A stretch of DNA of 64,000 nt from positions 434,001-498,000 of the forward strand of contig JAHBUC010000002.1 in NCBI GenBank assembly GCA_019638275.1, written 5' to 3'. The notes under the pieces are model-generated. The model was not told the DNA's origin. It ran no database searches and worked only from the letters and a program-made list of their open reading frames with translations. Within the stretch, counting starts at the first letter, position 1; every line of letters starts with the position of its first letter. The translations under genes and the position numbers were made by a program. This document shows, piece after piece, positions 31,698 through 47,740 of the stretch. The DNA is from Cyclobacteriaceae bacterium (GTDB lineage Bacteria; Bacteroidota; Bacteroidia; Cytophagales; Cyclobacteriaceae).

Positions 31698-31821
31698 TAG
31701 AAGCCATCTCAAAAATATCCCATAATGTCAGGTTGAGCTTGTCGAAACCGATTTGGTAACTCGAAATAGCCTTCGACAAGCTCAGGCTGACATTTGAAAC
31801 AGATTTTTGAGATGGCTTCTA
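31698..31821. repeat. 124-bp MITE-like palindromic element
   Basis: Perfect 19-bp terminal inverted repeats: 31698-31716 (TAGAAGCCATCTCAAAAAT) and its exact reverse complement at 31803-31821. Inside is a second inverted pair of 23 bases, 31724-31746 and 31772-31794, with two mismatches and the core TTCGACAAGCTCAG. The whole unit can fold into a long hairpin and carries no gene. The same core recurs at 47709-47722. It sits between the alpha/beta hydrolase and the DinB gene. Confidence 0.75.
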
Positions 31822-47694: not shown

Positions 47695-47740
47695 TTTCAT
47701 TGTCATGCTTCGACAAGCTCAGCATGACATAAAAATGAAA
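47695..47740. repeat. REP-like extragenic palindrome with TTCGACAAGCTCAG core
   Basis: TGTCATGCT (47701-47709) and AGCATGACA (47721-47729) are perfect complements around a short spacer, and TTTCAT/ATGAAA extend the symmetry to 47695 and 47740. The same core is in the MITE-like element at 31698-31821. It lies between marR and the 3-hydroxyacyl-CoA dehydrogenase gene, so it could also act as an attenuator or processing site within the cluster. Confidence 0.65.

Follow-up and report, generated by a model that had tools for sequence, protein, structure and literature searches.

The window analysed here is a stretch of 64,000 nucleotides from a Cyclobacteriaceae bacterium, and it contains a MITE of 120 bp. 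The element is dispersed in its genome, has inserted at TA with duplication of that dinucleotide, and has ends that match those of IS5-family elements with two ORFs. Between species that share an insertion, the words near the hairpin tips differ. We consider it very probable that this is a MITE with IS5-type ends which is mobilised in trans into TA, which carries REP-like passengers, and whose tip words are exchanged by gene conversion. The MITE itself mostly follows a known pattern, it is the exchangeable palindromic interior that deserves attention. The modular interior, and the fact that this genome and most related ones lack a partner transposase, lie beyond the view of the initial annotation, which was made from the letters of the window.

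The initial annotation described a 124-bp element with perfect 19-bp inverted ends, an inner repeat of 23 bases with two mismatches and, from both, a long hairpin. The 124 bases at 31698-31821 do consist of two nested inverted repeats. The outer arms (31698-31716 and 31803-31821) are 19 nt long and 100% complementary, and the inner arms (31724-31754 and 31764-31794), which are 31 nt long and 84% complementary, contain the 23-base repeat. The whole 124 nt folds into one long hairpin that is far stronger than shuffled sequence, with -66 kcal/mol as RNA against -24.1 +/- 3.5 in 200 shuffles (z -12.0), and -41.9 as DNA against -10.4 when shuffled (z -11.8). The length has to be revised: each perfect 19-base arm comprises 17 bp of element plus TA, and the outermost TAs are target DNA.

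The MITE proper (31700-31819) has no coding capacity. Its left terminal inverted repeat, GAAGCCATCTCAAAAAT (31700-31716, plus strand), is an end also found on IS5-family insertion sequences elsewhere, and its right terminal inverted repeat (31803-31819, minus strand) was located by the inverted-repeat search. Between them are two hairpin units placed head-to-head. Unit 1 (31726-31749, plus strand) is REP-like, reads TGTCAGGTTG-AGCT-TGTCGAAACC and has its TGTC tag outward; unit 2 (31769-31792, minus strand) reads TGTCAGCCTG-AGCT-TGTCGAAGGC on the complement. AGCT, here called word A, forms the tip of both units (31736-31739, plus strand, and 31779-31782, minus strand). Other copies have a hairpin word (word C) at the tip of unit 1, or TCCCGATAATTATCGGGA (word B) at the tip of unit 2.

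The ORFs show no transposase frame within the 120 bp, as the annotation had stated, and the element falls within the usual description of a MITE, that is 70-300 bp, non-coding, with inverted repeats of 15-30 bp. It lies between two divergent genes, an alpha/beta hydrolase gene (PF00561; 30854-31681, minus strand), the start codon of which is about 18 bp from the element, and a DinB-family gene (PF05163; 31932-32405, plus strand). A scan for promoter and terminator consensus sequences gave two and one sites respectively, which is near the shuffle level, and none of these is inside the element.

The insertion can be seen by comparison with a sister species, G001, whose genome is a single contig. 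The window is otherwise largely collinear with this genome, in which the same two genes flank an exact empty site with one TA, gtttagcTAaatg, where the window genome has gtttagcTA[120 bp]TAaatg. The TA is single when the site is empty and paired when it is filled, the target is therefore TA (31698-31699 on the left) and it has been duplicated (31820-31821 on the right), which leaves 120 bp for the element proper.

The MITE is present many times in its own genome (G000). A 141-base query gives 56 matches there; since a palindromic element matches on either strand, several of these are one place counted twice. Paired ends are found at 22 places; one copy is 100% identical to that of the window over the whole element, and two others match almost all of the query at 98% identity. 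Of the 22 copies, 15 have TA on both sides and 20 have it on one side or both. Two deletion forms of about 57 bp are also found. The end pattern AGAAGCCATCTCAAAA, with up to two mismatches, has 55 sites in the own genome compared with 6 for the reversed control, and the 18-base end pattern is found in nine of 17 genus genomes compared with one control hit across all 17. On contig C16 of G007, three element-end matches (135153, 135277 and 135401) are exactly 124 bp apart, possibly as a tandem array of the element or of part of it.

All but one of the 22 copies overlap no frame of at least 120 aa, the exception (L025) is at the edge of a 138-codon frame. According to the ORF calls eight of the 22 start exactly at the end of a gene, with TA and the first base of the element forming the stop codon. 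As the element starts with G, TA followed by this base makes a stop wherever the element lands in frame at the end of a gene, a likely reason why insertions next to genes survive. The strong hairpin may plausibly affect the transcript.

For 26 copies the corresponding site was looked for in 2.4 Mb (58%) of G001; 14 gave both flanks and L003 gave one, ten gave none, and L026 gave only weak, probably false flank matches. The insert is absent from G001 at eight of the 14 sites (L001, L009, L011, L013, L015, L017, L018 and L019). G001 has a single TA at L011, L017 and L018 and, less cleanly, at L019, while the junction is unclean at L009, L013 and L015. Three of the 14 inserts (L007, L012 and L025) are common to G000 and G001. 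At L008, G001 has a separate insertion across a terminator-like stretch, at L014 it has unrelated sequence, and L024 is a core-only copy for which the comparison is unclean. The L011 insert is present in both G000 and G007 (L082) and is missing in G001 (L268), where one TA remains. By flank identity G001 is nearer to G000; precise excision from G001, or another history, is possible.

The left end was also sought in a genome collection of 257 billion bases. GAAGCCATCTCAAAAAT is present in at least 116 stretches; among the matches listed, a partner end lies at most 260 bp away in 49 of the 116, and in 67 it does not. About 30 exact 17-mers are expected by chance in a collection of this size, so many of the 67 may be chance matches, from which the 49 partnered stretches are exempt. 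TA is found on both sides in 28 of these 49 among the matches listed. Judged by their titles, the partnered stretches belong to Bacteroidota, deltaproteobacterial groups and others, and their interiors are quite different and, by eye, palindromic.

Four insertion sequences in other genomes, L156, L163, L184 and L216 (871, 894, 838 and 874 bp), share the 17-base ends of the MITE, each end with 0-2 mismatches, and have TA on either side. In the three that were scanned, L163, L184 and L216, ORF1 contains PF13340 (DUF4096) and the overlapping ORF2 contains PF01609 (DDE_Tnp_1); the frames of L156 look broken. All six ORFs, each of which makes up half of the protein, are best matched by the NCBIfam model NF033580, 'IS5 family transposase'; three score above its whole-protein cut-off of 110 bits and the others 102-109. 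L163, L184 and L216 have the features of the IS427 group (about 830-890 bp, two overlapping ORFs, DUF4096 and DDE domains, TA duplication), and on size, ORF layout and TA the partner elements probably belong to this group. The accessible part of a study of Paracoccus (PMC3281130) describes IS5/IS427 elements of 832-865 bp with two overlapping ORFs and a frameshift motif, and 10 of 11 IS5/IS427 rows considered from its Table 2 have a 2-bp duplication. The initial annotation had proposed to look for further copies, target-site duplications, a transposase with matching ends and empty sites in relatives, and its reading of the element as a MITE holds on all four counts; a lone sequence conserved at the same site in all relatives is the opposite of what was found.

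An autonomous partner with the same ends is found in other genomes and not in the own genome. No DUF4096 (PF13340) transposase was detected in the own genome or in 16 of the 17 genus genomes, and the one positive genome, G013, has short matches only. With DUF4096 in one of 17 genomes and not in its own, the family looks orphaned and must borrow a transposase. The own genome has no PF01609 gene, and PF01609 is absent from six of seven end-bearing genomes tested. These include G004 and G014, which are single contigs, so a collapsed assembly repeat is not the reason for its absence there. G001 has three PF01609 genes, in longer frames (415, 415 and 487 aa). As the partner transposase is missing from most hosts, the MITE seems to have been spread by a transposase since lost, or by a visiting one. 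The copies look young, yet no partner is at hand, and this counts against IS5-type mobilisation, as does the location of all four complete insertion sequences outside the own genome.

Another transposase that recognises similar ends might move the MITE instead, and the genus does contain a candidate. The 487-aa PF01609 frame in G001 belongs to an element (L382) that we take to be IS1182-like by its ends and size; its ends, GAGGCTGTCTCAAAA, differ from those of the MITE at 3 of 15 positions. However, no TA pair flanks L382, the own genome is without a PF01609 gene, and the match to the ends is better in the IS5-family elements, which are also flanked by TA. The one IS1182-family element in Table 2 of PMC3281130, in the accessible part of that study, has a 4-bp duplication. 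Movement by L382 or a similar element is very improbable. In the mechanism that we favour, an IS5-family two-ORF transposase supplied in trans would move the MITE and join its ends to TA, and this transposase would since have become absent from most genomes of the genus. The interior, a head-to-head pair of REP-like hairpins, would be carried as passengers, and words would be swapped by short-tract gene conversion among the many copies that have the same arms.

At least four unrelated pairs of hairpins are found between the MITE ends in the genus. Pair 1, TGTCAGCC..GGCTGACA, is found in the own genome, G001 and G007. Pair 2, AACCACAAAG..CTTTGTGGTT, is a longer inverted pair found in G004, G006, G014 and G015, pair 3, CGTCATTGCGA..TCGCAATGACG, is found in G004, G007 and G015, and pair 4, TGTCATTCCGGG..GCGATGACA, is found in G009. 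Pairs 1, 3 and 4 resemble by eye the REP dimers in head-to-head order described by Di Nocera et al. (2013, PMC3733652), as these are presented in the accessible text of that paper. CGTC/TGTC REPs are defined by a stem of 8-9 bp starting with AT, a loop of 4-5, a CCA-like tail and head-to-head dimers. The inner hairpins have the tag and the head-to-head order, being short TGTC/CGTC-tagged hairpins separated by a spacer. By eye, cores 3 and 4 fit the definition better, they start with CGTCATTG and TGTCATTC and have AT first in the stem, whereas the window's core 1 departs from it in detail, its stem being about 4-5 bp long and beginning with AG. The dimers described here further differ from the published REPs in that they travel inside IS5-type ends. 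The accessible text of PMC3733652 reports no dedicated transposase for CGTC REPs and leaves open what mobilises CGTC-type REPs.

Alternatively, the inner hairpins might themselves be the mobile unit, as REPs moved single-stranded by a tyrosine (Y1/HUH) transposase, with the outer repeat merely a favoured target palindrome. Some inner hairpins are indeed not bounded by the outer ends (47701-47729 in the window, L024 and L267), the own genome has one Y1 transposase, and the accessible text of PMC3733652 places REP dimers inside longer palindromes in A. variabilis and H. neapolitanus. However, the empty site in G001 contradicts this for the window copy: it is without any outer repeat, which shows that the outer and inner parts arrived together, with TA duplication. 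In addition, one kind of outer end bounds four unrelated interiors. The sole Y1 gene (L088) has no end or core sequences within 3.3 kb. With no repeats of the MITE family near L088, the Y1 transposase was rejected as the mover, and the inner hairpins are very unlikely to be the mobile unit. The Y1 gene (G000 C1:432234) is surrounded by several GC-rich hairpins that by eye are of its own type, for example GAAGTCCGAAGGACTTC and CACCCGAGTATCGGGTG.

The initial annotation had noted that a core of the element, TTCGACAAGCTCAG, is found again at 47709. It is indeed present at 31772 and 47709, and four occurrences are found with up to two mismatches compared with 0.38 expected by chance. The second occurrence lies in a lone hairpin, TGTCATGCTTCGACAAGCTCAGCATGACA (47701-47729, plus strand), which has the same tip word and no outer ends. 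This hairpin is at the same place, unchanged, in G001, and so is not a second copy of the MITE. Its orthologue in G016 has word B instead.

Retention of the sequence for a function, as a structured RNA or a transcription terminator rather than as a mobile element, would suit the very strong fold, the intergenic position of 21 of the 22 copies (by overlap with frames of at least 120 aa) and the several copies that abut gene ends, but it is extremely improbable because unrelated flanks, the exact empty site and TA duplication show insertion, the window copy is between divergent genes and not behind a gene, eight of the 14 compared sites have no insert in G001, and no Rfam family matches the element at gathering score. 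The Rfam search of the region gave nine sub-threshold matches, which were dismissed and put down to chance for a long palindrome.

The element can be compared with several known systems. It is like the IS5 family, the IS427 group and the MITEs derived from them in its shared ends, in the two-ORF elements of 838-894 bp and in TA (PMC3281130, in the part accessible). Unlike IS427-derived MITEs, its interior has no visible remnant of an insertion sequence, four unrelated interiors are found in one genus, and the partner is absent from most hosts of the family. The BrickBuilt MITE of Porphyromonas gingivalis (PMC4596501) is also from Bacteroidota, is also intergenic and has an interior that varies by copy; in the accessible text of that report BrickBuilt varies by a 23-nt tandem repeat, whereas the element of the window varies by replaced palindromic words. 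MITEPye1 of Paracoccus yeei is likewise non-autonomous and intergenic, with insertion-sequence ends and a long stem-loop, but differs in belonging to the IS1182 family and in having 1-3 chromosomal copies (PMC11578231, accessible text). A search of the openly accessible literature found no paper describing this element.

The words between the fixed arms (TGTCAGCCTG/TGTCGAAGGC or TGTCAGGTTG/TGTCGAAACC) fall into three kinds. Word A is AGCT or a near variant, word B is as given above, and word C is a hairpin word of 24-26 bp that contains AGCT or a near variant. The combinations A/A, C/A, A/B and C/B are all present among the 22 copies, three of which were assigned partly by eye. Word B is always in the GGC hairpin, and word C is in the GGTT hairpin except in L012.

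Shared inserts differ in their words. The L007 site has A/A in G000 and G007 and A/B in G001, the L011 site has C/A in G000, A/A in G007 and is empty in G001, and the L025 site has C/B in G000 and A/A in G001. In each of these three, shared private mutations in the ends mark one insertion event. The words also differ at L012, where the G000 element aligns better with that of G001 when flipped in place. All four shared inserts therefore differ in words while the remainder aligns, a small number drawn only from sites with flanks available. The inserts at L012 (G000 C1:173987) and L260:5088 (G001) appear to be the same MITE insertion, inverted in place, and the breakpoint of the inversion is probably in the terminal repeats.

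These differences are explained most conservatively by gene conversion. The four word combinations are as recombination between left and right hairpins would give, and the presence of word B on the same side in all carriers is as homologous transfer predicts; gene conversion accounts for both observations. What conversion through shared arms leaves unexplained is that the same class of palindrome is found in unrelated hairpins. G000 has 18 places with the 18-bp palindrome TCCCGAT-N4-ATCGGGA and G001 has 16, and the backward pattern is matched in none of the 17 genomes. All eight AATT-form copies in G000 are MITE tips. By our own reading, the contexts at 29 distinct places comprise 3 in core 1, 8 in CGTCATTGCGA hairpins, 1 in the 47709 orthologue, 6 in truncated tRNA copies, 2 in another conserved hairpin and 9 elsewhere.

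In the six tRNA cases a truncated copy, the 5' half of a tRNA, lies shortly upstream of an intact gene (tRNA-Ala, -Asp, -Thr or -His) and has the palindrome where the D-loop would be. These cases are in G001 (L286:12920, L323:2989 and L348:6526; Ala, Thr and Asp) and in G008 (L386:1501, L397:1501 and L397:1577; Thr and His). ARAGORN detects only the intact tRNA genes and not the truncated copies. It is conceivable, though on balance we doubt it, that tip words are mobile or copied units that enter hairpin loops whatever the surrounding sequence. If true, a process acting on hairpin loops would add a third layer of mobility, with a word of about 18 bp nested in a REP that is itself nested in a MITE.

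The family shows what appears to be recent spread of a MITE in genomes where no partner transposase is found. Several unrelated REP-like dimers are enclosed by the ends of one IS5-type MITE with demonstrated insertion at TA, which makes REP mobilisation directly testable. Because words differ at orthologous inserts, the tip sequence is no basis for dating or classifying such repeats, and the differences are a natural record of sequence exchange over very short tracts.
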